A stretch of 64,000 nt of DNA, from NCBI GenBank assembly GCA_902800215.1, contig CADCDS010000015.1:1-64000 (forward strand). The letters run 5' to 3'. A program made the translations under genes and the position numbers. The stretch is from an uncultured Bacteroidales bacterium (GTDB lineage Bacteria; Bacteroidota; Bacteroidia; Bacteroidales; Paludibacteraceae). This document shows positions 891 through 62,632 of this stretch, piece by piece (positions within the stretch are counted from its first letter, which is position 1; each line of letters opens with the position of its first letter). A model generated the notes under the pieces. It did no database searches. It was not told the origin of the DNA and saw only the letters and a list, made by a program, of their open reading frames with translations.

Positions 891-1667
891 TTAGAGGCTT
901 TCAGCGAACCTTTCGGCCTCTTCTATTTGGTCGATTTTTCCCACATCCATCATTCTGAAAGCGTTTGGAATATACGCTTTCAGATTGGACATTGGACATT
1001 GGACATTGGACATTTGTTTTTCACAGATAGCCATATAGAAATCGATAAGGGAGAATTTGTCGTCGGGTATTTCCTCTAAACGCTCCAACACATCTGTTCC
1101 TAACACTTGACAGCCGCTAAAAGCTAAATGACGACCATCGTGACCTTTCAGTTCTCCGGTTTTGATATTCGTCCAACCGCAGAGACGATCATGCTCATCG
1201 AAACAGAGATAACGTTGAGTCTCTCGTTGACTGACAACGAGGAGACTCATTGGAGATTGAAGATTGGAGATTGGAGATTGATAACTAGAAATTAAAGCGC
1301 GGAGGTCGAGATTGGAGAGGATATCCACGTTGCAGGCTAAGATGGCTGTTGGCTCTTGCAGGTTTGACCTAGCAGTTAGCCTTTTTAGGGCTTTTTTGAG
1401 ACCACCGCCGGTATCGAGGAGTTGGTCGCGTTCGTCGGAGATAAGGATGTTACACCCCCAGCCGTTATTACGACGGACGGTGTCGATGATCATATCGGGA
1501 AAATGATGAACATTGACGATGATATCGGTGATGCCGGCATCACGAAGCCGCTCCACCTGCCATTGAAGGAGGGGTTTTCCTGCTAAGGGTACGAGTGCCT
1601 TGGGCATCGTATCGGTGAGGGGTTTAAGACGCGTACCGAGACCGGCACAAAAGATCATTGCTTTCAT
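891..1667 (-). CDS. murU: MurU-like sugar-1-phosphate nucleotidyltransferase
   Basis: A 258-residue NDP-sugar pyrophosphorylase. The N-terminus carries the nucleotide-binding GLGTRLKPLT signature (residues 9-18) followed by MPKALVPL. Its partners upstream are an AmgK-like sugar kinase and a RapZ-C protein, so the likely reaction is UTP + MurNAc-1-phosphate to UDP-MurNAc in cytosolic peptidoglycan recycling; the substrate is inferred from context, since GlcNAc-1-P or mannose-1-P enzymes look alike. It is the last gene of the rpmB operon. Oddities: two arrays of 7-bp repeats lie inside the gene, encoding residues about 129-140 (SPISNLQSP) and 219-228 (SNVQCPMSN), which look like inserted low-complexity loops. 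Confidence 0.75.
   Translation of the reverse strand: MKAMIFCAGLGTRLKPLTDTMPKALVPLAGKPLLQWQVERLRDAGITDIIVNVHHFPDMIIDTVRRNNGWGCNILISDERDQLLDTGGGLKKALKRLTARSNLQEPTAILACNVDILSNLDLRALISSYQSPISNLQSPMSLLVVSQRETQRYLCFDEHDRLCGWTNIKTGELKGHDGRHLAFSGCQVLGTDVLERLEEIPDDKFSLIDFYMAICEKQMSNVQCPMSNLKAYIPNAFRMMDVGKIDQIEEAERFAESL
984..1012 (+). repeat. Heptamer array, ATTGGAC x4, inside murU
   Basis: Four perfect copies of ATTGGAC (984-1011). Read in the gene's frame it gives the SNVQCPMSN segment near the C-terminus of the MurU-like protein. Confidence 0.9.
1249..1283 (+). repeat. Heptamer array, ATTGGAG type, inside murU
   Basis: ATTGGAG, ATTGAAG, ATTGGAG, ATTGGAG, ATTGATA in tandem. It encodes the SPISNLQSP segment, one of the protein's two repeat-derived loops. 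Confidence 0.9.
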
Positions 1668-1727
1668 TGACGATTGGACGATTTACAAGGTACGATTGAT
1701 TTACGATTTATTCTAAGGTACGATTTA
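1667..1727 (+). repeat. Degenerate heptamer array between murU and rapZ
   Basis: Imperfect copies around ATTTACG/ATTGACG/ATTGGAC fill the gap between the two genes and extend into the end of the rapZ frame. The rapZ stop TAA (1708-1710) lies in the array, so the last few RapZ residues are repeat-derived. Confidence 0.65.
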
Positions 1728-2112
1728 TACCGCGTTCGCGGTGAATGAGGTGGATACGGACGTTGTATTTCTCGTGCAGGTGTGCAGCGAGATGTTCGGC
1801 ACAATAGACGGAGCGGTGCTGCCCACCGGTACAACCGAAGGAGACTTGCAGATTGGTAAAATCGCGTTCGATGAATCGCTCCACATGATGATCGACGAGT
1901 GCATAGACGGACTCGAGGAAAGTGAGGATCTCGCCATCCTGTTCCAGAAAATCGATGACGGGTTGATCCAATCCGGTCATCTGTTTGTACTGATCGTATT
2001 TACCGGGGTTATGGGTTGAACGGCAGTCAAAGACATAACCGCCGCCGTTGCCGGACTCATCCGCCGGGATGCCTCGTTTAAAGGAGAACGAGTAGATCGT
2101 TACTGATAGCAT
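1708..2112 (-). CDS. RapZ C-terminal-domain protein
   Basis: At 134 residues it corresponds to the C-terminal half of RapZ, without the N-terminal P-loop kinase-like half. It carries GNGGGYVFDCR (residues 22-32), HNPGKY and FGCTGGQHRSV (about residues 91-101), the hallmark of the domain that binds glucosamine-6-phosphate in enteric RapZ. Placed between a sugar kinase and a nucleotidyltransferase it plausibly senses or handles an amino-sugar phosphate; that role is inference. Its ATG overlaps the end of the kinase gene by 35 nt in another frame, suggesting translational coupling. In other Bacteroidales this domain can be fused to the kinase, so the pair may be a split fusion. Confidence 0.85.
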   Translation of the reverse strand: MLSVTIYSFSFKRGIPADESGNGGGYVFDCRSTHNPGKYDQYKQMTGLDQPVIDFLEQDGEILTFLESVYALVDHHVERFIERDFTNLQVSFGCTGGQHRSVYCAEHLAAHLHEKYNVRIHLIHRERGINRTLE

Positions 2113-3049
2113 AGAGATAGGGATATTCTTCTTTTAAGGGTTCAAGGATATCGTGTAAGTTCTTTAGCGCCAAGGGGATGGACTCCAGGAAATGCTGCTT
2201 GCGCTCAAAATAACCGCGGTAACCGTACGCACCGAGAACCTGAAGGGTGCGCAGGAGAACGAAGTGCGGGAGAGATGCTTTCCAGGCATCTCTATTGGAG
2301 ATTGGAGATTGGAGATTGGAGATTGATATTTTCTCCAACTCATCCAAATAATCTTCGATCAGTTTTTCTCGCAGTTCGGGAGCGAGGTTGGCTTTCGCCT
2401 GCCAGAGGAAGGAAGCGACATCGTACTGGGTAGGACCGCGACGACCGCCTTGAAAATCGATGAAGTACGGTTGACCGTCACGAATCATGACATTCCGGCT
2501 TTGGAAATCGCGATATAAGAAAGTTGAGAGTTGAAAGTTTAGAGTTGAGAGAAGCTTTTTTACCAGCGCATCAAAATCATCTTCGAGGTGGGGTTCGGAG
2601 AACTCGATCTGCGTACCTTTGAGGAAGCAGTACTTGAAGTAGTTCAGATCCCATCGTACGGAGCGTTCGTCAAAAGCGGGAACGGGGAAGCAATAGGACC
2701 AATCGAAGTCACGTGCACCTTCCACTTGTATGTGCGCAAGCGCACGTATAGCGCGTTCTAATAAGGTGGGATCGAGGTTATCGAAGAGGAGGGTGTCACC
2801 CAGATCTTCCTGGGTATAAGACATCTCATCGTCACTGACCCAATAGACTTCGGGCACGGGTAAACCGAGTGCATGAAAATGGCGTGCCATATAGATGAAG
2901 GCACGGTTCTCATCGCGGTTGGTGCCGACTACCCGAATGACGGAGCGACCGTTTTCATCGGTCTCCCGGGTATAAACCCGATTACTTCCTTGCTGTTTGA
3001 TCATAACGGTGTACGAAAAATGCGTATTCTCCTTTCGGAAAACACGCAT
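2078..3049 (-). CDS. amgK: AmgK-like aminoglycoside-phosphotransferase-fold sugar kinase
   Basis: A 323-residue member of the APH/choline-kinase superfamily. QQGSNRVYTRE (about residues 19-29) is the nucleotide loop, LYRDFQSRNVM (177-187) the catalytic loop with Asp and Asn, and FIDFQGG the metal-binding Asp. With MurU and RapZ-C downstream it fits AmgK, the anomeric kinase for MurNAc/GlcNAc in peptidoglycan recycling. The first ATG (3049) is used, 14 nt after the DUF4295 stop; Met16 is an alternative. Two heptamer arrays interrupt it: residues 167-176, directly before the catalytic loop, and residues 241-252. Both fall in surface-type linkers if the fold is preserved. Confidence 0.75.
   Translation of the reverse strand: MRVFRKENTHFSYTVMIKQQGSNRVYTRETDENGRSVIRVVGTNRDENRAFIYMARHFHALGLPVPEVYWVSDDEMSYTQEDLGDTLLFDNLDPTLLERAIRALAHIQVEGARDFDWSYCFPVPAFDERSVRWDLNYFKYCFLKGTQIEFSEPHLEDDFDALVKKLLSTLNFQLSTFLYRDFQSRNVMIRDGQPYFIDFQGGRRGPTQYDVASFLWQAKANLAPELREKLIEDYLDELEKISISNLQSPISNRDAWKASLPHFVLLRTLQVLGAYGYRGYFERKQHFLESIPLALKNLHDILEPLKEEYPYLYAISNDLLVLL
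2294..2328 (+). repeat. Heptamer array, ATTGGAG x4 + ATTGATA, inside amgK
   Basis: Four perfect ATTGGAG copies and one variant. It has the same sequence type as the array at 1249-1283 in murU and encodes the same SISNLQSP peptide. Confidence 0.9.
2522..2549 (+). repeat. Heptamer array, AGTTGAG type, inside amgK
   Basis: AGTTGAG, AGTTGAA, AGTTTAG, AGTTGAG in tandem, encoding LSTLNFQLST directly before the kinase catalytic loop. Confidence 0.85.
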
Positions 3050-3063
3050 TTTCGTTTTGTTAA

Positions 3064-3216
3064 TTACTTGAAGAACTCGTTTACTTTCTCGTTGAGTACG
3101 ATTTCCTCTTGGAAGACGTAAGCACCTGTTTTAGGCGACTTAACCATCTTGATGCACTTAGAGTGCGCGCGTCCGGAGTTACCGGTTTGCAGTGTTGCGA
3201 CCGCTTTCTTTGCCAT
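3064..3216 (-). CDS. DUF4295 family small protein
   Basis: A 50-residue basic protein starting MAKKAVATLQTGN and containing MVKSPKTGAYVFQEE. This matches the Bacteroidota-only DUF4295 family, which regularly follows rpmB and rpmG and is presumed to be ribosome-associated. No mechanism is established. It lies 31 nt after rpmG and 14 nt before the AmgK-like gene in the same operon. Confidence 0.88.
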   Translation of the reverse strand: MAKKAVATLQTGNSGRAHSKCIKMVKSPKTGAYVFQEEIVLNEKVNEFFK

Positions 3217-3247
3217 AGTTCTAAGCCTTTCTAAAAATAGGTGTTAA

Positions 3248-3436: not shown

Positions 3437-3453
3437 TGTTCAGCTCCTTTCTT

Positions 3454-3690: not shown

Positions 3691-3756
3691 TGTATTATAT
3701 ATTTTATATTTTTTCCAATTTCGGGGATTCTCCGCACATTAACACGAAAAATCGCG

Positions 3757-3788
3757 CAAAGGTACTGCTTTTTTTTGACATGACCAAA
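3757..3788 (-). promoter_or_regulatory. Promoter of the rpmB operon
   Basis: On the minus strand: TTTG (3785-3788), GTCATGTC, an A-tract, then TACCTTTG (3757-3764), with 20 nt between TTTG and the TAnnTTTG box. Confidence 0.8.
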
Positions 3789-3824
3789 TATTTTTGTAAA
3801 AAAATGCAAAAAAATTTCATTTTT

Positions 3825-3856
3825 CTTGCGTATGTGCGAAAAAAGCAGTATCTTTG
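3825..3856 (+). promoter_or_regulatory. Promoter of nrnA
   Basis: CTTGCGTATGTG (TTG at 3826-3828), 20 nt, TATCTTTG (3849-3856). The start codon at 3876 leaves a leader of only about a dozen bases. Confidence 0.75.
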
Positions 3857-3875: not shown

Positions 3876-4931
3876 ATGGCTATCGAATTTAAATCAGCAG
3901 ATGTTCAACGTGCGCATGAATGGATTGCGCAGGCGAGACATATCGTTATTATCACGCACATGGCTCCGGACGGCGACGCGATGGGATCGGCGCTGGGACT
4001 TTGGAATTGGCTTAAAGGGTTACCGGTTACGGGTGACGGGTTACGGAACGTGAACGTGCTTGTGCCGAATGCGTTTCCAAAGTTCTACCAGTGGATGCCG
4101 GGAGCGGAGGAGATTACGGTCTACGAGACGAATGCGAACCGCTGTAACGAGCTGATAACCAATGCGGATTTGTTTATCTGCACAGATTTCAATGACCCCA
4201 AACGGATTGGTCCGATAGGCGAGAAATTAGTAGCTGCAACGGCACCGAAAATTCTGATTGATCATCACCTGAATCCGACGGATTTTGCGGATATCGTTTT
4301 CAGTTTTCCGGAGGCTTGTTCGGCAAGTGAGATTGTGTATCGGTTTATAAGGGTTACGGGTTATCGGTTATCAGTTAGCGGAGCTACTTGCATCTACACG
4401 GGACTGATGACAGACACGGGTAATTTCAGTTTCAATTCCACGAGTTGTGACCTGTACGAGATCATCGCGGAACTGATTCGTGCCGGCATCAAAAAAGACG
4501 AGATCTACAATGCCGTTTACAACCAGTATTCGACAGATCGGGTGCGACTGACGGGTTACGCTTTATACCGCAAGATGCGGATCTATCCGGAGTACCATCT
4601 GTCGCTGATCACCTTGAGTGCCGATGAGTTGGACCAATACCATTACCAGCCGGGAGACACGGAGGGATTGGTGAATATGCCGTTACAGATCAGCGACGTC
4701 TATTACTCGGTGTACATGCGGGAAGAACGACCGAAACCGGGTACGCCGAAACCGCGAATAAGGATATCGTTCCGTTCGCAAGGAGACCGGCCGGTGAACA
4801 TCTGGGCGAGTGAGGTTTTCAATGGCGGCGGACACATGAACGCCTCCGGCGGAGAGTTGTTCGGAAGCCTGAATCAGGCGGTACAGTTATTCGAAAAATC
4901 GTTTCCGAAGTATATAAAGGCGAAAGGCTAA
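3876..4931 (+). CDS. nrnA: DHH-family phosphoesterase, NrnA type (nanoRNase/pAp phosphatase)
   Basis: 351 residues from the ATG at 3876, chosen over upstream in-frame starts because the promoter ends at 3856. DHH-domain motifs: THMAPDGDAMGS (residues 27-38), ICTDFND (101-107) and the DHH triad at 129-131 (LIDHHLNP). The DHHA1 substrate-binding motif FNGGGHMNASGGE is near the C-terminus. NrnA degrades 2-5-mer RNA and dephosphorylates pAp with Mn2+ in the cytosol. Two GGTTAC-type heptamer arrays are inside the gene (residues 48-57 and 159-168), and the C-terminal KAKG and stop come from a third array. Confidence 0.9.
   Translation: MAIEFKSADVQRAHEWIAQARHIVIITHMAPDGDAMGSALGLWNWLKGLPVTGDGLRNVNVLVPNAFPKFYQWMPGAEEITVYETNANRCNELITNADLFICTDFNDPKRIGPIGEKLVAATAPKILIDHHLNPTDFADIVFSFPEACSASEIVYRFIRVTGYRLSVSGATCIYTGLMTDTGNFSFNSTSCDLYEIIAELIRAGIKKDEIYNAVYNQYSTDRVRLTGYALYRKMRIYPEYHLSLITLSADELDQYHYQPGDTEGLVNMPLQISDVYYSVYMREERPKPGTPKPRIRISFRSQGDRPVNIWASEVFNGGGHMNASGGELFGSLNQAVQLFEKSFPKYIKAKG
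4017..4044 (+). repeat. Heptamer array, GGGTTAC type, inside nrnA
   Basis: GGGTTAC, CGGTTAC, GGGTGAC, GGGTTAC in tandem. It encodes GLPVTGDGLR between the first DHH motif and the next strand. Confidence 0.85.
4351..4378 (+). repeat. Second GGGTTAC-type heptamer array inside nrnA
   Basis: GGGTTAC, GGGTTAT, CGGTTAT, CAGTTAG, encoding RVTGYRLSVS. Confidence 0.8.
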
Positions 4932-4966
4932 AGGTTACGGGTTACGGGTTACGGGTTACGGGTTAT
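4918..4966 (+). repeat. Mixed heptamer array at the nrnA 3' end
   Basis: AGGCGAA, AGGCTAA, AGGTTAC, three GGGTTAC and GGGTTAT: seven tandem heptamers that grade from one sequence type to another. The nrnA stop codon lies in the second unit. Confidence 0.9.
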
Positions 4967-4998
4967 AGAGAAAAAAATGCGAAAAAATGGCACGCGCG

Positions 4999-5030
4999 CT
5001 TGCGTATGTCATTTTTTTTTTGTAATTTTG
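4999..5030 (+). promoter_or_regulatory. Promoter of the PPIase-gldG unit
   Basis: CTTGCGTATGTC (TTG at 5000-5002), 20 nt, TAATTTTG (5023-5030), about 40 nt before the ATG at 5070. Confidence 0.75.
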
Positions 5031-5069
5031 CACGCAATTTTGTGCGCACATATATTTAAACAACATAAA

Positions 5070-6839
5070 ATGATGAAAAAAAGTATTGTAATGATCGCGT
5101 TGGCGGCTATGAGTTTGACCGCCTTTGCACAGCAAGAGACGCTGATGACGATTAATGGAAAACCCGTCAGCGCCGAGGAGTTTTTGTACATCTATGAGAA
5201 GAACAACCAGGCAGGTGCTTTGGACCCAAAGACCATGGACGAGTATCTGGACATGTTCATCAATTTCAAATTAAAAGTGACGGAAGCAGAGAGTCAGGGT
5301 ATTGACACGACGGAAGCTTTTGCCAAGGAATTGAAAGGTTACCGTGCTCAGGCAACACCGAAGTACCTGCAGGATCAGGCAGCGTTGGACAGTCTGGTAG
5401 AGATGAGTTGGCGTCATATGGCCAAGGATCGTCGTGCCGCGCATATCGCGATTCAGTGTCCGAGAAGTGCGAGTGAAGAAGAGGTAGCCGCAGCGTTGGC
5501 GAAGATCAACGAAGCCTATGAGCGTGTGACGATCGGCAAGGGTGTGATGAAAGGCAAAGGCAAGAAGGCGAAGTTGGTTCGTCAGAAAGTGGAAGCTTTT
5601 GACGTAGTCGCACGGGAAGTGAGCACCGATCCGAGTGTACAGGAGACAAACGGTGAGTTAGGCTGGATCACGCCGTTCCGTTACGTCTATCCGCTGGAAG
5701 AAGCGGTATATAACACGGAGATCGGTCAAGTGAGCAAACCGTTCCGTACCCAGTACGGATGGCATATCGTGCTGGTAGAAGAAGAGCGCGATCATATAGA
5801 GGTGAAAGCCGCACATATCATGAAGATGGTGCCGGAAGAGAAACTGGATGCCGAGAAGAAAGCGTTGATCGACAGTATTGCATTGATTTTGACACCGGAG
5901 AATTTTGCGGAAGTAGCCCGTCAGGAATCCGACGACCGCGGAAGCAGTGCCAAAGGTGGTGACTTAGGATGGTTCGGCAAGGGTATGATGGTGAAACCGT
6001 TTGAAGATGCTGCGTTCAGTCTGAAAGAAGGCGAGATCAGTGCTCCTATTCGCAGTCAGTACGGATGGCATATTATTTATAAAGAAGGAGAACGCGGCAT
6101 TCAACCGCTGGATTCGATTCGTCAGCAAGTGCTTCGTAACGTACAGCGTGACGAGCGTGCGCAGGAAGCGGATAAGAGTTTTATCCGCAAGACTCGTGCC
6201 GAATATCATCTGCCGGCAGAGATGACGGATGCAGAAGTGAAGGCGTTTGCAGACGAACACTTGGAGGAGAAATATCCGGAGTTGAAGAACCTGGTGCAGG
6301 AGTACCACGACGGTATTCTGCTGTTTGAGGTGTCCTTACGTGAAGTTTGGGACAAGGCAGCTAAGGATACGGCCGGTCTGGAGAACTATTTCAAAGGCCA
6401 CAAGAAAGCGTACACCTGGACCGCACCGCGTTGGAAAGGTTACCTCATCCAGGCCAAGGACAAGAGTAGTGCCAAAGCTGCCAAGGCCATCATCAAGAGT
6501 GCCCATCCGGATTCGATTCAGAGTTACATCGCGCAGCGTGTGAACTGCGACAGCGTGCAGTACGTGAAGGTACAACACGGTCTGTGGGAGCAAGGCAAGA
6601 ACGCCGCAATCGATAAATACGGATTCAAAGTGAAAGGTGCTGAGTTCAGTCCGAAAGAGGAACTACCGTACGTAGAGTGCGTAGGTAAGAAACTGAAAGC
6701 ACCGGAGGCATGGAATGACGAGAAAGGCAAAGTAACCACGGACTATCAGGATTACTTGGAGGCCGAGTGGATCAAACGCTTGCGTGAGAAATATCCGGTA
6801 GTGATCAACCAGGAAGTGTGGGAAAAGATTAAGAAATAA
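5070..6839 (+). CDS. Exported peptidyl-prolyl isomerase with two parvulin domains (SurA/PpiD-like)
   Basis: 589 residues from the ATG at 5070; the second ATG (5073) is equally possible, and the longer upstream frame would destroy the signal peptide. The signal peptide is residues 1-21, ending TAFAQ. A helical chaperone-like region precedes two rotamase domains, about 123-240 (GELGWITPF, QYGWHIVLVE) and 247-343 (GGDLGWFGKGMM, QYGWHIIYKEGERG). A helical C-terminal half of about 240 residues follows. It likely assists folding of outer-membrane proteins in the periplasm, which fits the barrels and T9SS parts encoded nearby; that link is inference. Confidence 0.88.
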   Translation: MMKKSIVMIALAAMSLTAFAQQETLMTINGKPVSAEEFLYIYEKNNQAGALDPKTMDEYLDMFINFKLKVTEAESQGIDTTEAFAKELKGYRAQATPKYLQDQAALDSLVEMSWRHMAKDRRAAHIAIQCPRSASEEEVAAALAKINEAYERVTIGKGVMKGKGKKAKLVRQKVEAFDVVAREVSTDPSVQETNGELGWITPFRYVYPLEEAVYNTEIGQVSKPFRTQYGWHIVLVEEERDHIEVKAAHIMKMVPEEKLDAEKKALIDSIALILTPENFAEVARQESDDRGSSAKGGDLGWFGKGMMVKPFEDAAFSLKEGEISAPIRSQYGWHIIYKEGERGIQPLDSIRQQVLRNVQRDERAQEADKSFIRKTRAEYHLPAEMTDAEVKAFADEHLEEKYPELKNLVQEYHDGILLFEVSLREVWDKAAKDTAGLENYFKGHKKAYTWTAPRWKGYLIQAKDKSSAKAAKAIIKSAHPDSIQSYIAQRVNCDSVQYVKVQHGLWEQGKNAAIDKYGFKVKGAEFSPKEELPYVECVGKKLKAPEAWNDEKGKVTTDYQDYLEAEWIKRLREKYPVVINQEVWEKIKK

Positions 6840-6840
6840 A

Positions 6841-6889
6841 GGCGAAAGGCGAATGGCTAAAGGCTAATGGCAAAAGGCTAATGGCTAAT
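6841..6889 (+). repeat. Heptamer array GGCGAAA/GGCTAAT x7 over the gldG start
   Basis: Seven tandem units (GGCGAAA, GGCGAAT, GGCTAAA, GGCTAAT, GGCAAAA, GGCTAAT, GGCTAAT) begin right after the PPIase stop and run through the first codons of gldG, whose ATG (6881) is inside the array. Confidence 0.92.
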
Positions 6890-8548
6890 GTAAAGAAATA
6901 TTGGGGGATTGGCGTGGTGCTGGCATGTCTGGTGATTGCCAACGTGCTGGTGCAGGTGCGTGTGTTCCGATGGGACTTGACGGACGATAAGATCTACAGT
7001 CTGAGTGACGCGTCAAAGGTGTTGTTACAGCAGACGGATGCCCCGATCGAGGTGACGATCCTGTTGAACGGAGAGTTAAGTGCCGGTTTTCAACGTCTGC
7101 GCAAAGCAACGATCGAGACGCTGGAAGAGATGAAGGTGTACGCACACGGTTTGCAGATCCACTATCAGGATCTGAATGAACTGGATGCAAAGGCGCGGCA
7201 GGAGATGGAGCAACAGGGGTTTGTTCCGACGCGTAACACCATCGTCGAGCACAGCGGCAAGACGGTGGAGATGCGTACGTATCCCTATGCGGTGCTACGT
7301 TACCATGACGAGGAAGCGATCATCAACCTGTTATCCGGAACCGAACAAAGCGAAGAAGAAGTGACGAATGCCGGCATCGAGCAGTTGGAATACAACCTGA
7401 TGGAGCCGCTGTACCTGATGCAACGCACCGAGACACCGAGGGTAGCCATCTTGGAAGGTCACGACGAAGCCGACGAGCGGTATTCGTATGACTTGGAGAA
7501 CACCTTAAGTGCCTATTTCCAAGTGGACCGCGGTTCGATCAACGGGGACAGTGTGGATCTGCATATACTGGACAACTACCAGGCGATCATTATTGCCAAT
7601 CCGCAGAGTTCGTTCGGAGAAACGGAGCGGTATATCATTGACCAGTATATCATGCGCGGCGGAAAGGTATTGTGGGCTGTGGACGGTGTGCGATTCAGTG
7701 ACGAGATGTTACATAGCGAAGGGTATACTCCCATCGTGGAACATGAGATCGGGATCAAGGACATGCTGTTCCGATACGGTATATGCATCGATCCGGCCTT
7801 GGTGCAAGATGTGCAGTGCCTGACGATACCGGTGCAAGCACCGAGCAGTTCGAAGCAGTCGCATATCCTGATTCCTTGGACATATGCGCCGCTGTTACAA
7901 AGCAATCCCTACCACCCTATCACGCATGACTTAGGTGCAATCATGAGTACGTTTGTCAGTCCCATCCGTGCCGTGAATGACGAAGACGGGATTGAGAAGT
8001 TTGTGCTGTTATACACGAGTACAGCCACTAAGGTGACGCGTTGTCCGAACGAGGTGAACCTGAGTGGAAACGAGCAAAACTGGGATCAGTACGAGCATGC
8101 GAACGTGCCGGTAGCGGCATCGATGGAAGGTGTCTTCCCAAGTGCGTATGCCCATCGGATGATGCCGGAAGGAGTAATGGGTAACGATCCGTTGATCAAG
8201 CAGAGTGCACCGACGCGGCAAGTGGTGATCGGTTCCGGTAGCGTGCTGATGAACAACGCGCAACAGAACCAGGTGATGGCGATGGGTTATGACCCGGTGA
8301 CGGGACGATTGTATAGTAACCGCGATTTCATCACGAATGCCATGCTGTGGTTAACGGACGGTGATGGCCTCATCAGTCTAAGAGAGAAAATCGTTCCATT
8401 ACGACTGCTGAACACCAAACGGGCATATAAAGAGCGAACCAAAGTGGAGATCATCAGTACCGTGGCACCGATCGTGTTCCTGCTGTTAGTTGGCGGAGCG
8501 GTGATCGTGATCCGGAAACGAAAATACGGATTAAAGGCGAAAGGCTAA
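6881..8548 (+). CDS. gldG: GldG, gliding-associated ABC-type accessory protein
   Basis: A 555-residue GldG family protein. TM helix at about 7-25, then the conserved VRVFRWDLTDDKIYSLSDAS region and an extracytoplasmic domain with VAILEGHDE, ending in a second TM helix (about 528-547) and a basic tail. In Flavobacterium GldG works with GldF (permease) and GldA (ATPase). Neither gldF, which usually lies directly upstream, nor gldA is present here. The first codons and the last (KAKG-stop) are formed by heptamer arrays on either side. Confidence 0.88.
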   Translation: MANVKKYWGIGVVLACLVIANVLVQVRVFRWDLTDDKIYSLSDASKVLLQQTDAPIEVTILLNGELSAGFQRLRKATIETLEEMKVYAHGLQIHYQDLNELDAKARQEMEQQGFVPTRNTIVEHSGKTVEMRTYPYAVLRYHDEEAIINLLSGTEQSEEEVTNAGIEQLEYNLMEPLYLMQRTETPRVAILEGHDEADERYSYDLENTLSAYFQVDRGSINGDSVDLHILDNYQAIIIANPQSSFGETERYIIDQYIMRGGKVLWAVDGVRFSDEMLHSEGYTPIVEHEIGIKDMLFRYGICIDPALVQDVQCLTIPVQAPSSSKQSHILIPWTYAPLLQSNPYHPITHDLGAIMSTFVSPIRAVNDEDGIEKFVLLYTSTATKVTRCPNEVNLSGNEQNWDQYEHANVPVAASMEGVFPSAYAHRMMPEGVMGNDPLIKQSAPTRQVVIGSGSVLMNNAQQNQVMAMGYDPVTGRLYSNRDFITNAMLWLTDGDGLISLREKIVPLRLLNTKRAYKERTKVEIISTVAPIVFLLLVGGAVIVIRKRKYGLKAKG

Positions 8549-8570
8549 TGGCGAAAGGCGAAAGGCTAAA
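8536..8570 (+). repeat. Heptamer array GGCGAAA/GGCTAAT x5 at the gldG 3' end
   Basis: GGCGAAA, GGCTAAT, GGCGAAA, GGCGAAA, GGCTAAA. It has the same type as 6841-6889, so gldG is bracketed by copies. The gldG stop TAA is in the second unit. Confidence 0.92.
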
Positions 8571-8573
8571 GTT

Positions 8574-24795: not shown

Positions 24796-25068
24796 ATATC
24801 TTTGTTATCTATTTTCTTTCTAAAAATTTGCTCTGAGAAAAGTGAGATTTCTCAGAATTCTCACAATTCTCATGTAATTTTTTGCATGGCGATATTGACA
24901 TTTTTGGCGATATCGCCAATATCGCCATTATCGCCAGTACATTTTTTCATCTTTTACTGGGCCATTTTGGGCAATTTGGGGCTACAAAAACGTTCATAGA
25001 ACGTTTAAAACGTTAGTGATAGGTTAATGATAAGTTAACTATAAGTTAGTTATTAGCCTTACTATTCC
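24796..25068. repeat. Intergenic region of mixed short tandem repeats
   Basis: A 273-nt gap with no gene. It holds 9-mers around AATTCTCAC (24853-24872), 9-mers around TATCGCCAN (24906-24936), GGGCAATTTGGGGC, and four degenerate 11-mers of the form TTAnnnATAAG (25013-25056). No Bacteroidota promoter pair was found, so how the polysaccharide genes to its left are transcribed is unclear. Confidence 0.75.
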
Positions 25069-25572: not shown

Positions 25573-26541
25573 TTAATGATAAAACCTTGTTCCCGGCAAA
25601 CAAGAGAACGAATCAATCACACCGCATACTTTATCCTCATCCAGCACAATGAGCGTGTGAATCGAGTGATGGTTCATCGTCTCACCTGCCTCCACGATCT
25701 TGGCGTCCTTACTAATCGTTTTCGGGTTCTTACTCATAATCGCTTCCACCTGCGTTGCAAAGAAACTTTGTCCCAAACGCATCATCGCCCGACGGATATC
25801 GCCGTCCGTAATGATGCCCACCAACGCCTCTTTATCAATTACGATTCCGATACCTAACGTACCCTTCGTCACGATCTCGATGGCTTCGCTCAACGGCATA
25901 TCCGGTGTGAGGAACGGCAGGTTCTCCGTGAACATAACGTCCTCTACTTTCGCTAACAGCTTTCGTCCCAAATCGCCTCCCGGATGCAATTTTGCAAAAT
26001 CCGTAGGCTGGAAATGGTTCGCCTCTACCAAGGCACAAGCCAACGCGTCACCTAATGCCAGCGTCGCCGTCGTCGATGCCGTCGGGATCAAATTCAACGG
26101 ATCGGCTTCCCGTTCCACGGCAATATTCAGATGGATATCCGAATACCGTGCCAACAGACTCTCCGGATTACCGGACATACCAATAATGCGGATTTTCTTC
26201 GCCTGTATCAGCGGTAAGAAACGCAATAACTCCTCCGTTGCACCCGAGTATGAGATCGCCAACACGAGATCCTCAGATGAAAGCATACCCAGATCTCCGT
26301 GGTAGGCATCCAGCGGATTCAAGAAGAATGCCGGCACACCGGTACTCGCCAAAGTGGCAGCGATCTTACTTCCGATGTGTCCGCTTTTGCCGACACCCGT
26401 TACGACCACCTTGCCTTTGCAGTCCCGAATCGCCTCTACCGCCTGCAGAAACGTCTCATCCAAACGGCTTATCATCGCCCGGATAGCATCCGATTCGCAT
26501 TCCAAGCACTCAACGGCCCTATTAATAATGTCTTTATCCAT
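25573..26541 (-). CDS. kdsD: Arabinose-5-phosphate isomerase KdsD/KpsF
   Basis: 322 residues from the ATG at 26541, which shares a base with the GT4 stop; a longer in-frame extension to 26691 lies wholly inside the GT4 gene and is rejected. An SIS domain is at about 30-180 (VVTGVGKSGHIGSKIAATLASTG, AISYSGATEELL), followed by LHPGGDLGRKLL and two CBS domains. It converts ribulose-5-phosphate to arabinose-5-phosphate for Kdo synthesis. Confidence 0.93.
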   Translation of the reverse strand: MDKDIINRAVECLECESDAIRAMISRLDETFLQAVEAIRDCKGKVVVTGVGKSGHIGSKIAATLASTGVPAFFLNPLDAYHGDLGMLSSEDLVLAISYSGATEELLRFLPLIQAKKIRIIGMSGNPESLLARYSDIHLNIAVEREADPLNLIPTASTTATLALGDALACALVEANHFQPTDFAKLHPGGDLGRKLLAKVEDVMFTENLPFLTPDMPLSEAIEIVTKGTLGIGIVIDKEALVGIITDGDIRRAMMRLGQSFFATQVEAIMSKNPKTISKDAKIVEAGETMNHHSIHTLIVLDEDKVCGVIDSFSCLPGTRFYH

Positions 26542-27665: not shown

Positions 27666-27666
27666 T

Positions 27667-27687
27667 CTTCAATCTCCAATCTTCAAT
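27667..27687 (+). repeat. Heptamer array CTTCAAT/CTCCAAT x3 between GT4 and the cytidylyltransferase
   Basis: CTTCAAT, CTCCAAT, CTTCAAT fill the 23-nt gap exactly up to the cytidylyltransferase stop. Confidence 0.75.
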
Positions 27688-27688
27688 C

Positions 27689-37740: not shown

Positions 37741-38207
37741 GAGTGGGTATCATAGGTCCTGAATCCACAGGAAAAAGCACCTTGGCGCGATATCTGGCGC
37801 ACAGATATAAAGGAACGTACGTGCCCGAGTATGCGCGTACGTACATGGAGCAGAAAGGCAGCACAGAGGTCACATGGGAGGAGTTATGCGAGATAGCAAA
37901 GAAGCAAATTGAAGAGATGTCAGCTATCAGCCTTCAGCCATCAGACCGCATCTATTTCTTTGATACCGAACTAATCATAACGAAGGTATGGTTCGACTAC
38001 GCTTTCGGTCGTGTACCGGAATGGTTAAATGAAAACATCCACCGTTATCCGATGGATGTCTATTTGTTGACGTATCCGGATTTACCGTGGATTCCTGATT
38101 CGGCGCGTTCTAATGGTTCCGATGCGATCCGTATGGAGCTTTTCGAGCGCTATGAGCAGGAGATACAGGCCTTGGATATTCCCTATTATATCATCAAGCA
38201 CTGTTAG
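37737..38207 (+). CDS. NadR-like P-loop kinase/ATPase
   Basis: 156 residues. P-loop [18 protein letters not shown] (residues 4-21), [25 protein letters not shown]. These match the C-terminal ribosylnicotinamide-kinase domain of NadR and the stand-alone Bacteroidota homologues; the NMN adenylyltransferase domain is absent. It could phosphorylate nicotinamide riboside. The ATG overlaps the sprA stop (ATGA). Residues 62-71 are encoded by a heptamer array, and the 3' end overlaps dtd by 4 nt. Confidence 0.8.
37920..37947 (+). repeat. Heptamer array, TCAGCCA type, inside the NadR-like gene
   Basis: TCAGCTA, TCAGCCT, TCAGCCA, TCAGACC, encoding SAISLQPSD between two conserved motifs. Confidence 0.8.
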
Positions 38208-38894: not shown

Positions 38895-38970
38895 AGGTGT
38901 TCTACTTTTCAAAAGCGCTTAAGAAGCGATTTTTCCCGGCACCATCGTGCCTTCGATTCAAAAGCGGGTG

Positions 38971-39002
38971 CAAAGGTACTGCTTTTTTTTGACATGACCA
39001 AA
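38971..39002 (-). promoter_or_regulatory. Promoter of tRNA-Asp/tRNA-Arg
   Basis: On the minus strand: TTTG (38999-39002), 20 nt, TACCTTTG (38971-38978). The flanks (AAAAGCGGGTGCAAAGGTAC on the plus strand) are the same as at tRNA-Lys. Confidence 0.8.
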
Positions 39003-39020
39003 TTTTTTGGCAACTTTTTT

Positions 39021-39788: not shown

Positions 39789-42084
39789 GCCAGTTTTCTC
39801 CTACACCGCATTCGGCAATTAAGGGTATGGACAGATGCACAGCATTCTGCATTTCAGAGACAACAATCTCACGGACGCGCTCTACTTCTGTTTTGGGCAC
39901 GTTGAAGTTGAGTTCGTCATGTACCTGCATGATCATCTGTGCCTTGAGGTTTTCTTCTTTGAGTCGCCGATGGATAGAGACCATGGCCATCTTGATGATG
40001 TCAGCCGCGGTACCTTGGATAGGTGCGTTGACGGCATTTCGTTCCGCAAACGAACGGACGGTTGCGTTATGGGAATTGATATCCGGCAAGTAGCGTTTAC
40101 GACCGAAGAGGGTTTCTGCATATCCCCGTTGACGCGCCAGTTCTTTCTGCGATTCGATATAACTGATCACGCGAGGGAAAGCTGCGAAATAGTCGTCTAT
40201 CAGTTGTTTGGCTTCGGTGCGGCTGCAGTCCAGTTGCTGCGCCAAGCCGAAAGCGGATATACCGTATATGATACCGAAATTGGCGGTCTTGGCGTTTCGG
40301 CGTTCGTCTTTGGATATCTGCTCAATGGGTTTTCCGTAGATCCGTGCAGCGGTGGCGGCATGGATATCCTGACCGGAACGAAAAGCGGCTAACATATGTT
40401 CATCTTGCGAGAAATGCGCCATGAGTCGTAACTCAATCTGGCTGTAATCGGCACTAAGGAAGAGACATCCTTCATCGGGGATAACTGCTTCACGAATCAA
40501 CTTACCTCGTTCAGAACGAATCGGTAAGTTTTGTAGATTCGGATTACTACTCGACAGACGTCCCGTTGCTGTAACGGTTTGGTTGTAAGTCGTATGGATC
40601 TTACCGTCCTCTGCAATATAACCCGGCAAAGCAGTTATATAGGTATTGATTAGCTTTTGGGTAGCTCTAAAGTCTAGGATTAACCCTACAATGGCATTAC
40701 GTTCCTTCAATGCAACCAGTACTTCTTCAGAAGTGGAGTATTGGCCGTTTTTGGATTTTTTTGCTTTGGCATCGAGTTTGAGTTTATCGAACAGCAGTTC
40801 GCCTACCTGTTTCGGACTGTTGATATTAAACGGTTCGCCAGCGAGCGTGTATATCTGCTGCTCCAAAGCATTCAGTTCCGCCATAAGGGCCGACTCCGCT
40901 TTTTTCAATTTCTCCACATCGATGCGTACACCAGCCGCTTCCATTTCCCGTAATACTTCCACCAACGGCATTTCTACTTCATTGTACAGATCCCACAAAT
41001 CGGCATCCGCCTTGAGAGCTGCGAAATCCGGTTCTTTATAAGGGTTGAAAGCTACTTCCGGATTCAACAGATATTGACAAAGACGGTTTTCAATGGTGTC
41101 ATAAGAAGCTGTTGGCTCTTGGCTATTAGCTGTTAGCTCATCGGGTTCAGCAAAGAGGTCTAATTGAGTAGGGTCGCTAGGTTTCTTAGGCGTATTAGGA
41201 GTCTTAGGTTGACTAAGCTGATTCGTTTCTAACTTACGCAGTAAGGTATTGAACTCGAGGTCACGATAGAGTGCCGTGAGTTGCTCGAGGTTCGGTTCTT
41301 TCTTGCTTAGCAGAGCTTCGTCGAGTGTGATCGGCACATCGGTGCGGATGGTAGCCAAGAAACGGGAGAACTTGATTTCTTCCACTTGCGATTCCACTTT
41401 TGTGCGCAGCGCACCTTTGATCTCATCGGTATGGGCCAGCATGTTATCGATAGAGCCGAACTGCTCCAACAAGGCGACAGCGGTCTTCTCCCCTACTCCT
41501 TTGCAACCGGGAATATTATCGGAAGCATCGCCCATAAGACCCAGCAGGTCGATGACTTGTTCTTTGCGTTGCAGTCCGTATTTGGCGCACACCTCAGCCG
41601 GTCCCATGAGTTCAAATCCGCCGGTATGACGCGGCCGGTACATGAAGACGTGATTGGAAACAAGTTGTCCGTAATCCTTGTCCGGCGTAGCCATATACAC
41701 CTCAAAACCGGCTTCTTCGCCTTGCTTGGACAAAGTACCAATGACATCATCGGCCTCAAAACCGGGCACTTCGAGAACAGGGATGTTCATGGCCTCCAGC
41801 AGTTGCTTAATAACAGGAACGGCTTTGCGGATATCTTCCGGTGTCTCCGGTCGTTGCGCTTTGTACTGCTCATAGGCCTCATGACGGAAGGTACCGCCGG
41901 CAGGATCAAACGCCACACCTACATGGGTCGGATTGATCTTCTTAAGCAGGTCCTCCAGCGTCACACAAAAGCCGAAGATAGCAGAGGTGTTTTCTCCTTT
42001 GCTGTTCATACGCGGTGCACGAATGAAGGCATAGTATGCACGAAAGATCATCGCATAGGCGTCTATAAGCAATAACTTTTTCAT
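39775..42084 (-). CDS. polA: DNA polymerase I lacking the 3'-5' exonuclease domain
   Basis: 769 residues against about 930 in E. coli. The 5'-nuclease domain is residues 1-290 (PGFEADDVIGTL, LMGDASDNIPGCKGVGEKTA) and the polymerase about 355-769: motif A LSADYSQIELRLMAH, motif B KTANFGIIYGIS, motif C QVHDELNFNV. Between them only about 65 residues remain where a 190-residue proofreading domain is expected; no DTET-type ExoI or other exonuclease motif is seen. Residues 288-325 of this linker come from a 9-mer array and a heptamer array. It should retain nick-translation and gap-filling functions without proofreading. Confidence 0.93.
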   Translation of the reverse strand: MKKLLLIDAYAMIFRAYYAFIRAPRMNSKGENTSAIFGFCVTLEDLLKKINPTHVGVAFDPAGGTFRHEAYEQYKAQRPETPEDIRKAVPVIKQLLEAMNIPVLEVPGFEADDVIGTLSKQGEEAGFEVYMATPDKDYGQLVSNHVFMYRPRHTGGFELMGPAEVCAKYGLQRKEQVIDLLGLMGDASDNIPGCKGVGEKTAVALLEQFGSIDNMLAHTDEIKGALRTKVESQVEEIKFSRFLATIRTDVPITLDEALLSKKEPNLEQLTALYRDLEFNTLLRKLETNQLSQPKTPNTPKKPSDPTQLDLFAEPDELTANSQEPTASYDTIENRLCQYLLNPEVAFNPYKEPDFAALKADADLWDLYNEVEMPLVEVLREMEAAGVRIDVEKLKKAESALMAELNALEQQIYTLAGEPFNINSPKQVGELLFDKLKLDAKAKKSKNGQYSTSEEVLVALKERNAIVGLILDFRATQKLINTYITALPGYIAEDGKIHTTYNQTVTATGRLSSSNPNLQNLPIRSERGKLIREAVIPDEGCLFLSADYSQIELRLMAHFSQDEHMLAAFRSGQDIHAATAARIYGKPIEQISKDERRNAKTANFGIIYGISAFGLAQQLDCSRTEAKQLIDDYFAAFPRVISYIESQKELARQRGYAETLFGRKRYLPDINSHNATVRSFAERNAVNAPIQGTAADIIKMAMVSIHRRLKEENLKAQMIMQVHDELNFNVPKTEVERVREIVVSEMQNAVHLSIPLIAECGVGENWLEAH
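41110..41137 (+). repeat. Heptamer array, TGTTGGC type, in the polA linker
   Basis: TGTTGGC, TCTTGGC, TATTAGC, TGTTAGC, encoding TANSQEPTA. This is the same peptide type as the sprA and PduO arrays, in the same coding sense. Confidence 0.85.
41177..41221 (+). repeat. 9-mer array in the polA linker
   Basis: CTAGGTTTC, TTAGGCGTA, TTAGGAGTC, TTAGGTTGA, CTAAGCTGA: five tandem degenerate 9-mers encoding a Pro/Lys/Thr-rich stretch (PKTPNTPKKP). Confidence 0.8.
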
Positions 42085-51333: not shown

Positions 51334-52320
51334 TTATAAGTACCTTACGCTTTTATACTTGTTTGTCCGTTTGGGCTTGAGGATATCAAATCCGTAAGCC
51401 AGATATATCTCGTGGCTTCCGTAACTCTCCAGCAGCAGTTTGTTAGTCGGCAGTTCGCAACTGTATCCCAACTGCAGTCCGGAGATGATATCCACGCCTA
51501 ACAGTATGTTCACACTTCCTGCAATGCGGTATCCGAGTCCCCACCGGTATCGGTCCTTGTAGTCGCACATCAGCGTCAGGTTGACATCCCAACTGACAAA
51601 GTCGCTCATCACCATTGCGCTGGGCGTCAGCATCCACTCTCTGTAGTTCTTCAAGCGGAAATGATATCCGCCGGTCACATACATCGTTCCGACCAGGGTT
51701 ACGATCTGCTGCACGCCGGTTGTTCCGTCCGACCAATCGATCTGAGGACGTAACAAATGGCTGTAACTGCCGCCTACCCACCAGGTCGGAGTGCTGTAAT
51801 ACAAGCCCACACTCATGTCAAATTTCATTCCCGATTTACTTCCCGTCGGAAGTGTCGGATCGTTGGCGTCGTGGTAGTCGTCTCCCATCTTACTGAGGTT
51901 GATCGAGTCCCCTTTGAAGCCCACGTTTACAAATCCCAAGTCAACACCGATTCCCAGATATCCTTTCCCCAGTTTCTGCCGGTAAGCGTATTGTGCGTAG
52001 AACGACTGGGTAGTGAACAATCCGTACCGGTCATTCAAAAACCGCACTCCCGCACCGTGACTTGTCTTGCCGATCACGAACGGTGAACTGAAACTGAACC
52101 AGGTGCTCATCGGTGCATTGGTAATGTCCACATACTGCATGCGGTGCATTCCCGCTACCTTCATCAGTCCGCCTTCTCCTACCGCGGCAGGATTATACGC
52201 TGTCGGCAGATACATATATTGCCCCATCTGGGGATCAAACTGCGCACTCGCAGTCACCAGGGTAAACACCCCAACCAGCAGAACAATATATCTTTTCAAT
52301 TTCCAATTTCCAATTTTCAA
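51334..52320 (-). CDS. porP: PorP/SprF family T9SS outer-membrane protein
   Basis: 328 residues as bounded, but no ATG is available. The frame opens with TTG at 52320 or, more likely, TTG at 52299, which gives signal peptide KRYIVLLVGVFTLVTASAQ. The PorP/SprF signature is FDPQMGQYMYLPTAYNPAAVG, then barrel strands and LAYGFDILK near the end. SprF-type proteins work with SprA-dependent surface adhesins and sit at the head of gldKLMN operons. The region encoding the start is a heptamer array, so the start codon itself is repeat-derived. Confidence 0.9.
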   Translation of the reverse strand: MKIGNWKLKRYIVLLVGVFTLVTASAQFDPQMGQYMYLPTAYNPAAVGEGGLMKVAGMHRMQYVDITNAPMSTWFSFSSPFVIGKTSHGAGVRFLNDRYGLFTTQSFYAQYAYRQKLGKGYLGIGVDLGFVNVGFKGDSINLSKMGDDYHDANDPTLPTGSKSGMKFDMSVGLYYSTPTWWVGGSYSHLLRPQIDWSDGTTGVQQIVTLVGTMYVTGGYHFRLKNYREWMLTPSAMVMSDFVSWDVNLTLMCDYKDRYRWGLGYRIAGSVNILLGVDIISGLQLGYSCELPTNKLLLESYGSHEIYLAYGFDILKPKRTNKYKSVRYL

Positions 52321-52328
52321 TTTTCAAT
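52294..52328 (+). repeat. Heptamer array TTTCAAT/TTCCAAT x5 at the DUF2795-porP junction
   Basis: TTTCAAT, TTCCAAT, TTCCAAT, TTTCAAT, TTTCAAT. It contains both the TGA stop of the DUF2795 gene (52324-52326) and the candidate TTG starts of porP. Confidence 0.92.
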
Positions 52329-52690: not shown

Positions 52691-53215
52691 TCAATTTTTA
52701 CACCAAATCGACTCTTTTTCTCCATTTTTGTGACTAAAATAACGCGAAAAAACGAAAAAATAGTCACTCAACCGATTGATAAATTGCAGGTGTATTTCCG
52801 CTGCTTTTGCATCGATCATCCGACGTTCTGCCCGACGACAGATAGTACGGCACACATGCGCCCTGCAAACGGTCTCACTTCCGGCCGGAAGAATGAAGGC
52901 ATGTTGCTTGGGTGTGTCGTTTACCATGGCATCGATCCATTCTTCCAATTGGTGCACATCGGCCTCTGTGATCCACTCTCCCGGCGCGTCACTTAAGGCT
53001 GCGCCCAAGTTAAACAGTTTGTTCTGGATCCATTCCAATTGGCTGTTCGTTGTTGGCTGTTGGCTATTAGCCGACACTCCGGCTCGCAAGAGCCCAATCC
53101 AGCTGTTCAGTTCATCGACCGTTCCGTAAGCTTCGATGCGTGCATCGGTTTTAGAAACCCGTTGACCGCTTGCCAACGAGGTTTCCCCTTTGTCTCCCGT
53201 CTTCGTGTATATCAT
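52691..53215 (-). CDS. PduO-type cob(I)alamin adenosyltransferase
   Basis: 174 residues. YTKTGDKGETSLASGQRVSKTD, EAYGTVDELNSWIGLLR, FILPAGSE and CRTICRRAERRM are the ATP- and corrinoid-binding elements of the PduO family. It converts cob(I)alamin to adenosylcobalamin, needed for example by methylmalonyl-CoA mutase in succinate-to-propionate metabolism. A heptamer array encodes residues 50-59 (SANSQQPTTN), lengthening the loop before the second conserved helix. The start overlaps the methyltransferase stop (ATGA). Confidence 0.93.
   Translation of the reverse strand: MIYTKTGDKGETSLASGQRVSKTDARIEAYGTVDELNSWIGLLRAGVSANSQQPTTNSQLEWIQNKLFNLGAALSDAPGEWITEADVHQLEEWIDAMVNDTPKQHAFILPAGSETVCRAHVCRTICRRAERRMIDAKAAEIHLQFINRLSDYFFVFSRYFSHKNGEKESIWCKN
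53040..53067 (+). repeat. Heptamer array, TGGCTGT type, inside the PduO gene
   Basis: TGGCTGT, TCGTTGT, TGGCTGT, TGGCTAT, encoding ANSQQPTTN. Confidence 0.85.
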
Positions 53216-61837: not shown

Positions 61838-62589
61838 TCTTTGAATTTAGCGCAGAGGAACTCGCGGTTGAGGCGAGCGATGTTAGCGAGGCTAACGGAT
61901 TTCGGACATTCAGCGGCACATGCACCGGTGTTGGTACAGTTACCGAAACCGAGTTCATCCATCTTAGCCACCATCGCTTTCGCACGCGCAGCACCTTCGA
62001 TCTTACCTTGCGGGAGCAGGGCAAGTTGCGAAACTTTTGCTGCTACGAACAACATTGCCGAACCGTTCTTACATGCAGCAGCACAGGCACCACAACCGAT
62101 ACAGGAAGCTGCGTCCATGGCCTCGTCAGCAACGGGCTTCGGGATGGGTATTGCGTTGGCATCGGGTACACCACCGGTGTTGACGGAAACGAAACCACCA
62201 GCCTGCATGATCTTGTCGTATGCACCGCGGTCGACCATGAGGTCTTTGATTACCGGGAACGCACGGCTGCGCCACGGTTCTACGGTGATCGTCTCACCGT
62301 CATGGAACTTACGCATGTGGAGCTGGCAGGTCGTGATAGCGCTGTCAGGTCCATGCGGGTGACCGTTGACGTACATGGAGCACATACCGCAGATACCCTC
62401 ACGGCAGTCGTGATCATAGGTAACGGGGTCTTTGTGCTGTTCAACGAGTTGCTCGTTGAGAATATCGATCATCTCCAAGAACGAAGCACCTTGGAAGACG
62501 TGCTTGAGCTCATAGGTCTCAAAATGACCTTGTGCTTTAGGTCCTGCTTGTCTCCAAACACGAACCTTAATATCAATATACTGATCCAT
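61834..62589 (-). CDS. sdhB: Succinate dehydrogenase/fumarate reductase iron-sulfur subunit
   Basis: 251 residues, the type B SQR/QFR form. 2Fe-2S motif [12 protein letters not shown] (about residues 64-75), ferredoxin-type [17 protein letters not shown] and [15 protein letters not shown] for the 4Fe-4S and 3Fe-4S clusters. It passes electrons between SdhA and the membrane cytochrome subunit. In gut Bacteroidales it usually works as fumarate reductase. It follows sdhA after a 31-nt gap filled by heptamer repeats. Confidence 0.96.
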
Positions 62590-62596
62590 AAAACTA

Positions 62597-62632
62597 ATTT
62601 ACGATTTGACGATTTACGATTTACGATTTGTA
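62597..62632 (+). repeat. Heptamer array, ATTTACG type, between sdhA and sdhB
   Basis: ATTTACG, ATTTGAC, (G), ATTTACG, ATTTACG, ATTTGTA. It fills the intergenic gap and includes the sdhA stop codon TAA, so the last SdhA residues (YKS) are repeat-derived. Confidence 0.88.

Follow-up and report, generated by a model that had tools for sequence, protein, structure and literature searches.

Heptamer arrays in a clade of Bacteroidales keep their sites and change their sequence

Short tandem arrays of 7-bp units are scattered over a 64,000-nt stretch of an uncultured Bacteroidales genome (family Paludibacteraceae; assembly GCA_902800215.1, contig CADCDS010000015.1, positions 1 to 64,000 of the forward strand; hereafter the window, whose numbering we use), and the question they raise is how one period can be held through so many different repeated sequences, inside conserved genes as well as between them. 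An initial annotation of the window proposed that a common mechanism creates or inserts such arrays regardless of sequence. Our comparison with related genomes showed that arrays stay in place while their sequence is replaced, which is the main point beyond what a single window can tell. The window genome (G000; G-numbers denote genomes and L-numbers loci or stretches) is a metagenome-assembled genome (MAG), 85% complete and 1.96 Mb in total; from it we also sampled 364 kb in 20 stretches, drawn from 20 of the 30 contigs, and window and sample together come to 428,368 bp, about one fifth of the genome. Its nearest named relatives are uncultured Bacteroidales and Paludibacteraceae, many of them from ruminant rumen or gut.

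Tandem Repeats Finder (TRF) returned 20 period-7 rows in the window; without an AT-rich row at 3693, 19 rows in 18 separate blocks remain, at the same places where the annotation had counted at least nineteen arrays. Local period scoring, with cut-offs of 8, 10, 12 or 16 depending on the test, gave 16 period-7 segments in the window at a score of at least 10, whereas 10 order-3 Markov simulations averaged 0.0, and among periods 2–30 none other than 7, 14 and 21 rose above three segments. The same period dominates in the sample, as expected from the claim that the arrays are genome-wide: at a score of at least 16, the 364 kb hold 45 period-7 arrays, 10 period-8 arrays and at most three of any other period. 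The annotation would have been refuted by a missing excess over periods 5–9, and in this part of the genome the excess holds, with 79 arrays of period 7 in window and sample together (score of at least 12) against 0, 3, 16 and 5 of periods 5, 6, 8 and 9. Tandem 7-bp units thus occur above chance, as in heptanucleotide simple sequence repeats (SSRs). Pfam domain matches back the gene names MurU, AmgK, NrnA, GT4, sprA, polA and PduO: the array-bearing genes match NTP transferase (MurU-like), APH kinase (AmgK-like), PolA, SprA_N, PorP/SprF, glycosyltransferase group 1 (GT4-like) and Cob_adeno_trans (PduO-type), and the NrnA-like gene matches DHH/DHHA1, with DHHA1 slightly below the cut-off. The heptamer arrays of the window are real.

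In five close pairs we compared 29 orthologous repeat sites, 23 heptameric and six of period 8, 11 or 16, leaving uncounted arrays less than 60 bp from a locus end or with flanks that could not be placed. Identity at these sites is bimodal, at least 0.85 in 12, below 0.65 in 14 and in between in three, with flanks of 0.87–1.00; the 23 heptameric sites alone fall into 10 conserved, two between and 11 changed. Retained arrays are 0.85–1.00 identical and mostly as conserved as their flanks, which argues against fast gradual drift. The three intermediate sites are copy-number changes, and such changes in unit number between close relatives (window 8533, L067 7362 and L067 1812, the last with substitutions too) are a minority. 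At seven of the 14 changed sites, the partner genome holds another array (period 7 or 14, score of at least 8). That close relatives often differ in array sequence at a fixed site suggests that some process keeps rewriting the sites.

A wider view came from five sites in the MurU- and AmgK-like genes (MurU A, B and C, AmgK 1 and 2), placed by conserved peptides on both flanks in 54 distinct loci. Scored heptamer arrays occupy 76 of the 266 site segments (AmgK 1, 18/54; AmgK 2, 22/54; MurU A, 2/53; MurU B, 21/53; MurU C, 13/52), the majority of loci having none at any given site, and they belong to 8, 9, 2, 12 and 7 families, respectively. At MurU B, where loci with dispersed matches were excluded from the comparison, many species among the loci listed have a family of their own at the same codons (CGCCATT, AAATCAC, GGGTTAC, TTACACC, AATGGAC, GGTGAAA, GTGGAAA, AATTAAA, AATTACC and others), and the remaining species have a short loop and no repeat. 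Seven of 30 loci hold an array in the PolA linker between the exonuclease and polymerase domains, of AGCCAAC, CCCGTAA and AATCACC types. Ordinary conserved sequence, which the annotation had named as grounds for its refutation, was not seen at the aligned AmgK, MurU and PolA sites, where orthologues among the loci listed lack the same residues.

For the window itself, genome G049 (found via L059) aligns with most of the stretch, in five blocks of 0.948, 0.944, 0.923, 0.89 and 0.87 ungapped identity, the last two with long indels. Sixteen of the 18 array blocks could be compared (those at 37920 and 53039 fall below the score used here), and seven are identical or nearly so, eight have a different sequence and one is missing; all eight changed arrays are intragenic, a small number that we simply note. 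Reading along the window, with every array detected by TRF, the MurU-like gene (891–1667) has at site C, near the C-terminus, an ATTGGAC array (984–1014, reverse strand, coding GTCCAAT, 100% match) that is identical in G049, and at site A an ATTGGAG array (1249–1280, reverse) where G049 has a palindrome-like tract, CCAGGGATCCCAGGGTCCTGGGATC, and no scored array. At site B (1332–1404, reverse) the window shows no scored array, G049 has one of GGCGAAT type and congeners have many other families. In the AmgK-like gene (2078–3049), an ATTGGAG array at site 2 (2294–2325, reverse; residues 241–252) and an AGTTGAG array at site 1 (2522–2551, reverse; residues 166–177) are matched in G049 by GGCGAAA-type and GGCGAAT arrays, respectively. 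The NrnA-like gene (3876–4931) carries a GGGTTAC array (4018–4046, forward; weakly periodic GGCGAAT/GGTTATT in G049), a GGGTTAC/GGTTATC array (4351–4381, forward, seen by period scoring as well; CAGCCAT/CAGCCTT in G049) and, across its end, an array of AAAGGCG then GGTTACG (4916–4965, forward) kept in G049 at 0.96.

GGCGAAA/GGCTAAT arrays lie between open reading frames (ORFs) 4977–6839 and 6881–8548, overlapping both by a few bases (6838–6890, forward; kept in G049 at 0.91), and at the end of the second ORF (8533–8571, forward; kept, with one 7-bp unit gained or lost). Three further arrays are identical in G049: GCTGATT in the GT4-like gene 26541–27665 (27157–27180, reverse), CTTCAAT between the ispD-like gene (27689–28366) and the start of the GT4-like gene (27657–27689, no strand assigned) and TTTTCAA at the start of a PorP/SprF ORF (52293–52328, reverse). 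The AGTCAAA and GCCAATA arrays of the sprA N-terminal region (30314–30343 and 30350–30378, both forward) face a different sequence and no scored array in G049, and the GGCTGTT-type array in the linker of polA, a 5'-3' exonuclease/polymerase by Pfam (41107–41139, reverse), faces one that is GGGTTAC-like by eye and scores below 8. The two blocks outside the comparison are a TCAGCCA array in ORF 37737–38207 (37920–37944, forward) and a TTGGCTG array in the PduO-type adenosyltransferase gene (53039–53065, reverse; Pfam-supported), and the array missing from G049 is of ATTTACG units at the end of an FAD-binding protein gene (62597–62629, no strand assigned).

How far does the trait extend among relatives? 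AmgK identity divides 39 matching genomes into a near group (75–86%) and a far group (56–60%). Period-7 arrays number 159 per Mb in the window genome sample and 154 per Mb (47 loci) and 121 per Mb (12 further stretches) in the near group, as against 10 per Mb (10 stretches) and 37 per Mb (15 loci) in far congeners, 18 per Mb (33 loci) and 48 per Mb (nine stretches) in mixed other Bacteroidales, and 9 per Mb in six stretches from other families of Bacteroidales. The 33 mixed loci, taken at less than 60% AmgK identity, also include some far congeners, and L197, counted among other Bacteroidales in the survey of 20-kb stretches, is probably another; from that survey we excluded L216 and L217, which overlap with earlier loci, and L194, probably the same genome as L186. 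A density of 346 per Mb in 14 near loci around amgK concerns a region picked for its arrays, and the near stretches are uneven, with three of 12 lacking any period-7 array and one holding eight. By extrapolation, genomes of the array-rich clade would each contain well over a hundred arrays. A degenerate pattern of three CCAATYN units has 68 matches in the window genome, and 18 of 394 other Bacteroidota have any match (maximum 15; 376 have none); the pattern is present in 24 of 41 genomes of the genus. Within this Bacteroidales genus, one clade shows the heptamer-array trait strongly, though not exclusively. Another Bacteroidales genome, G056, has six period-7 and three period-14 arrays in the 20 kb of L198. 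In the far-group and other-Bacteroidales stretches, the commonest array period is 11 (40 and 54 per Mb; L187, L188, L193, L195, L196, L202 and others), which is another lineage-preferred period.

Array length peaks at 30–34 bp, or 4.3–4.9 units (131 of 273 arrays), most sharply within genes (189 arrays, quartiles 29–33) and more broadly at gene ends and in gaps. Lengths are not exact multiples of 7; modulo 7 they instead peak, weakly, at 4–5 (114/273). The annotation held the core sequences to be unrelated and array formation to be indifferent to sequence, and on both counts the unit statistics (arrays with unit match below 0.75 excluded) point the other way. Dozens of different units occur within one genome, and yet 260 arrays use 92 units where random heptamers give 229 (range 215–240), the unit lacks G or lacks C in 161 of the 260 against 67 expected, and a network of single-base steps joins 94 of 98 units (the largest component of one random control was 60 of 91). 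The families are thus few, related and strand-skewed.

With crude ORF calling (ORFs of at least 100 aa, coverage 0.90), 189 of 297 arrays in the array-rich clade lie within ORFs, 84 over an ORF end and 24 in intergenic sequence; the intragenic share is below the coverage expectation and still the majority. At the five MurU/AmgK sites, the frame is kept without a stop in 85 of 86 array-bearing segments and lost in one; all 220 array-free segments are in frame (in both counts, loci reached by two routes count twice). We used this anchored test in place of a comparison of stop triplets between strands (a stop triplet in 33 of 189 units on the coding strand and in 108 of 189 on the other), which is partly circular because an ORF cannot contain an in-frame stop. 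In a structure model of AmgK (mean predicted local distance difference test score, pLDDT, 86.6; 23 sequences), site 1 falls in a predicted loop between helix 152–167 and strand 176–178 and site 2 in a predicted loop between helices 224–244 and 253–281, and these are the two lowest internal confidence blocks of the model (73 and 71). Frame retention and the modelled loops agree with the annotation's suggestion that in-frame arrays are tolerated. Its picture of clean insertion found no support: at AmgK site 2 a loop of comparable length gives way to the array, with no target duplication visible by eye there. Arrays occupy recurrent permissive places, namely protein loops, linkers, gene ends and gaps.

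The same MurU/AmgK spots are also used by palindromes (AmgK sites 1 and 2), 16-mers and octamers, and are thus permissive for repeat DNA in general. The palindrome TTCAGCCAAGCTTGGCTGAA or near variants (for example with a CATGCATG centre) occupies AmgK site 2 in species that have no heptamer array at this site (L063 10001–10897, L104 10716 and other amgK loci), and the inverted repeat CTCTCCCTTGAGGGGAGAG lies in frame at AmgK site 1 in L080 (2227), L088 (2150), L089 (10501), L090 (2817) and L098 (10489), with similar sequences in further loci. A longer common stretch, GTTAATCGCGCCCTTGCGGCAGAGAAT, occurs in three contexts (L066 11709, L071 12793, L063 4836), two of them adjoined by heptamer arrays. 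The window also carries three copies of a dispersed element, GCAAAGGTACTGCTTTTTTTTGAYATGACCAAAT (816–849, 3756–3789 and 38970–39003, the third within a region that has numerous short matches in related genomes), which has 11 copies with at most four changes in the 428 kb and is perhaps a promoter-linked motif. Runs of period 9 and 11 repeats lie at 24845–25048, where G049 has diverged as well.

Where might a new array sequence come from? Identical units make up 4.3% of array pairs within the window genome, 1.4% of its pairs with other genomes and 0.2% of random heptamer pairs. Across the five MurU/AmgK sites (segments with units of at most two letter kinds and repeated unit combinations excluded), arrays of one genome agree to within one base on the same strand in 15 of 52 distinct combinations, which come from nine genomes and are partly non-independent; permuting each site across genomes gave 7.1% agreement, with a maximum of 19.6%, and none of 1000 permutations reached 15/52. 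This run supersedes an earlier one (14 of 49 against 6.8%) that included eight loci of genomes present twice. G049, for example, has GGCGAA-type arrays, one of them weak, at four adjacent sites that carry different families, or none, in the window. For sharing by distance, plain permutation overstates the effect because array orientation follows the coding strand; redone with orientation held, the test gave 20 sharing pairs within 0.5 kb against 10.6 and 41 within 1.5 kb against 27.9 (1 of 300 permutations in each case). Neighbouring sites thus share families above chance, and arrays therefore seem to be copied between sites within a genome. In one case the direction of change can be read: L071 carries the array CGCTAAACACTAAA about 1 kb ahead of amgK, as do L080 and L086 (placed by distance, without alignment), whereas L064, aligned with L071 at that place, has a CCTACAC-type array of the same family as its own MurU array 2.5 kb off in the same direction. 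The L064 change supports copying in cis and does not prove it. We set aside shared imperfect arrays as proof of copying, since part of the shared strings stem from orthologous sites and the recurring AATTAAA..AATGAAA pattern is coding, its T/G variants being explicable, on our reading of the frames, by avoidance of in-frame TAA/TGA.

From the strength of the trait in one clade, the recurrence of sites, the change of whole arrays, the sharing of families and the retention of frame, we infer a clade-strong mutational process that keeps making and rewriting heptamer arrays through slippage, seeding by copies and selection, an account that we consider about equally apt to prove right or wrong. Replication would slip with a 7-nt step on meeting such a tract, and a new tract would often be seeded by a copy from another array of the same genome, through template switching or short-tract conversion, with the donor usually no more than a few kb away and equally oriented. 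Selection would then purge arrays that break the frame or add a stop, leaving the surviving intragenic arrays in loops; a function of the arrays themselves would be unnecessary. Several results weigh against this account. At the other seven of the 14 changed sites the partner genome is without a scored array, which means gain, loss, decay or other sequence and no exchange of array for array. Orientation-held sharing is weak within 3 kb (55 pairs against 47.6; 29 of 300 permutations) and moderate within 6 kb (80 against 67.5; 10 of 300), which makes the copying range uncertain, and a genome-wide bias for certain units would yield part of the sharing signal. At MurU B, two AATGGAC near-copies in L065 against four to five in L074 and L067 (among the loci listed) point to a possible local birth. 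The far congener G046 has 31 CCAAT matches, outside the clade, and the control, CCAATYN reversed and thus again a heptamer, matches 60, 36 and 32 times in three further Bacteroidota and once in the window genome, so that other heptamer-rich Bacteroidota exist. The key genomes are MAGs, and no enzyme association appeared among reverse transcriptase, MutS and Y-family polymerase over the 41 genomes. The link with a reverse transcriptase that the annotation had put forward found no backing, PF00078 being present in 10 of 41 genomes and not found in the window genome (85% complete), and we reject such an enzyme as cause, including diversification of the diversity-generating retroelement (DGR) or retron type. 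Loss of mismatch repair fails as well, with MutS_V in 40 of 41 genomes and a strong MutS1-type match in 38, as does a special Y-family polymerase. Y-family polymerases occur in 33 of the 41 genomes and show no clear link to the arrays: a divergent gene of this family, matched over a longer stretch at a weaker score, is frequent among array-rich relatives, but G043 and G023, with eight and four period-7 arrays in 20 kb, carry the other type. An active, enzyme-driven system that recognises tracts of about 32 bp and overwrites them with heptamer copies from another array of the same genome, diversifying the loops of housekeeping proteins with positions unchanged, seems to us unlikely.

Plain slippage, in which arrays would grow from local near-repeats, drift and vanish, 7-nt loops escaping mismatch repair and suiting the polymerase with no copying involved, has in its favour the unit-number changes among the 29 sites, the likely local birth of the AATGGAC arrays and the seven changed sites where an array faces none. 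Heptamers are, moreover, the commonest of the longer SSRs in many bacterial genomes, for which polymerase slippage has been proposed (Mrazek 2007, as cited in accessible parts of PMC4692102 and PMC4679880). Intermediates are few, however (3/29), and the sharing of families between neighbouring sites and within genomes is unexpected for independent births. Degenerate repeat units should be poor slippage substrates, and the units here have TRF matches of 76–100%; we find slippage alone rather doubtful. Insertion of arrays as units by a transposase- or reverse transcriptase-like machine has a parallel in the Rickettsia palindromic elements, which genes for conserved proteins likewise accommodate in frame; those are palindromes of fixed families, whereas these are tandem heptamers of changing family. 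Recurrent sites, a narrow length distribution and the occurrence of heptamers, palindromes TTCAGCCAAGCTTGGCTGAA and CTCTCCCTTGAGGGGAGAG and 16-mers at the same site would suit such a machine, but constant ends and target duplication were not seen by eye at AmgK, units vary within arrays and the reverse transcriptase distribution gives no help (transposase families were not searched), making a mobile element quite improbable.

The constant period and the length peak near 32 bp could also reflect binding or structural sites, such as G-quadruplexes or targets of a regulator on DNA or RNA, and G-rich heptamers of Xanthomonas and Nostoc are reported to prefer four units (accessible part of PMC4692102). 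The 30–34 bp peak is, however, also present in the 232 segments whose unit has neither GG nor CC (with smaller peaks near 18 and 24), so quadruplexes, our candidate reason for four units, cannot explain it; GGG or CCC units occur in 35 segments, far from the G-tract in every unit of G-quadruplex heptamers. With sequence freely exchanged and many arrays inside housekeeping genes, functional sites are very improbable. As 7 is not a multiple of 3, a gained or lost unit would shift the frame, and with unit changes observed and one of 86 array-bearing segments out of frame, phase-variable switching of genes comes to mind; we think it highly unlikely, given host genes such as polA, many imperfect arrays and copy-number changes rarer than whole changes (3 against 14). 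Short-read metagenome assembly might be suspected, repeats being a known source of error in MAGs, but 85 of 86 segments keep the frame and some arrays are identical across assemblies of different species, which makes an artefact barely credible.

The heptamer excess in bacteria is already known, and tetranucleotide to 11-mer repeats are described as normal to weakly over-represented (accessible part of PMC4060949). Compared with bacterial heptanucleotide SSRs as described in the accessible parts of PMC4692102 and PMC4679880, with which they share the period and the proposal of slippage, the present arrays differ in lying mostly in ORFs, in their dozens of units per genome and in whole change at fixed sites. 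The GGGAATC and GGGGA(T/C)T repeats of Xanthomonas and Nostoc are likewise heptamers, usually of about four units, and differ in sequence and length between relatives at the same place; as far as the accessible text goes, they are of one G-rich type per genome and mainly intergenic, whereas ours are of many families, mostly non-G-rich and intragenic (PMC4692102). Dispersed direct repeats of TAACTGA, found in Beggiatoaceae, some Cyanobacteria and five Bacteroidetes including Paludibacter, are in some arrays interrupted by related heptamers, as here; unlike here, the accessible text describes a single, fixed heptamer that mostly lies immediately before start codons, with related heptamers rarely repeated (PMC4679880). 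TAACTGA is absent from the commonest 60 of the 92 units in our 260 arrays. Calothrix also has heptamer families, which we take to be those named STRR. Three of them occur in one genome, resembling the several families seen here, and the accessible part of PMC4692102 holds no report of replacement at conserved intragenic sites. In the titles and abstract openings of the best-ranked records, which cover few subscription journals, we recognised no account of whole-array heptamer exchange at fixed intragenic sites in Bacteroidota, and we have not found such exchange in print.

The bacterial preference for 7-bp repeats has so far been explained by a guess at slippage alone (accessible parts of PMC4692102 and PMC4679880). 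An array-rich clade, array-poor congeners and close pairs with resolvable changes make slippage, copying and selection separable, and the preference for about four units needs no G-quadruplexes. The arrays are also a natural record of protein loops that tolerate varied peptides.

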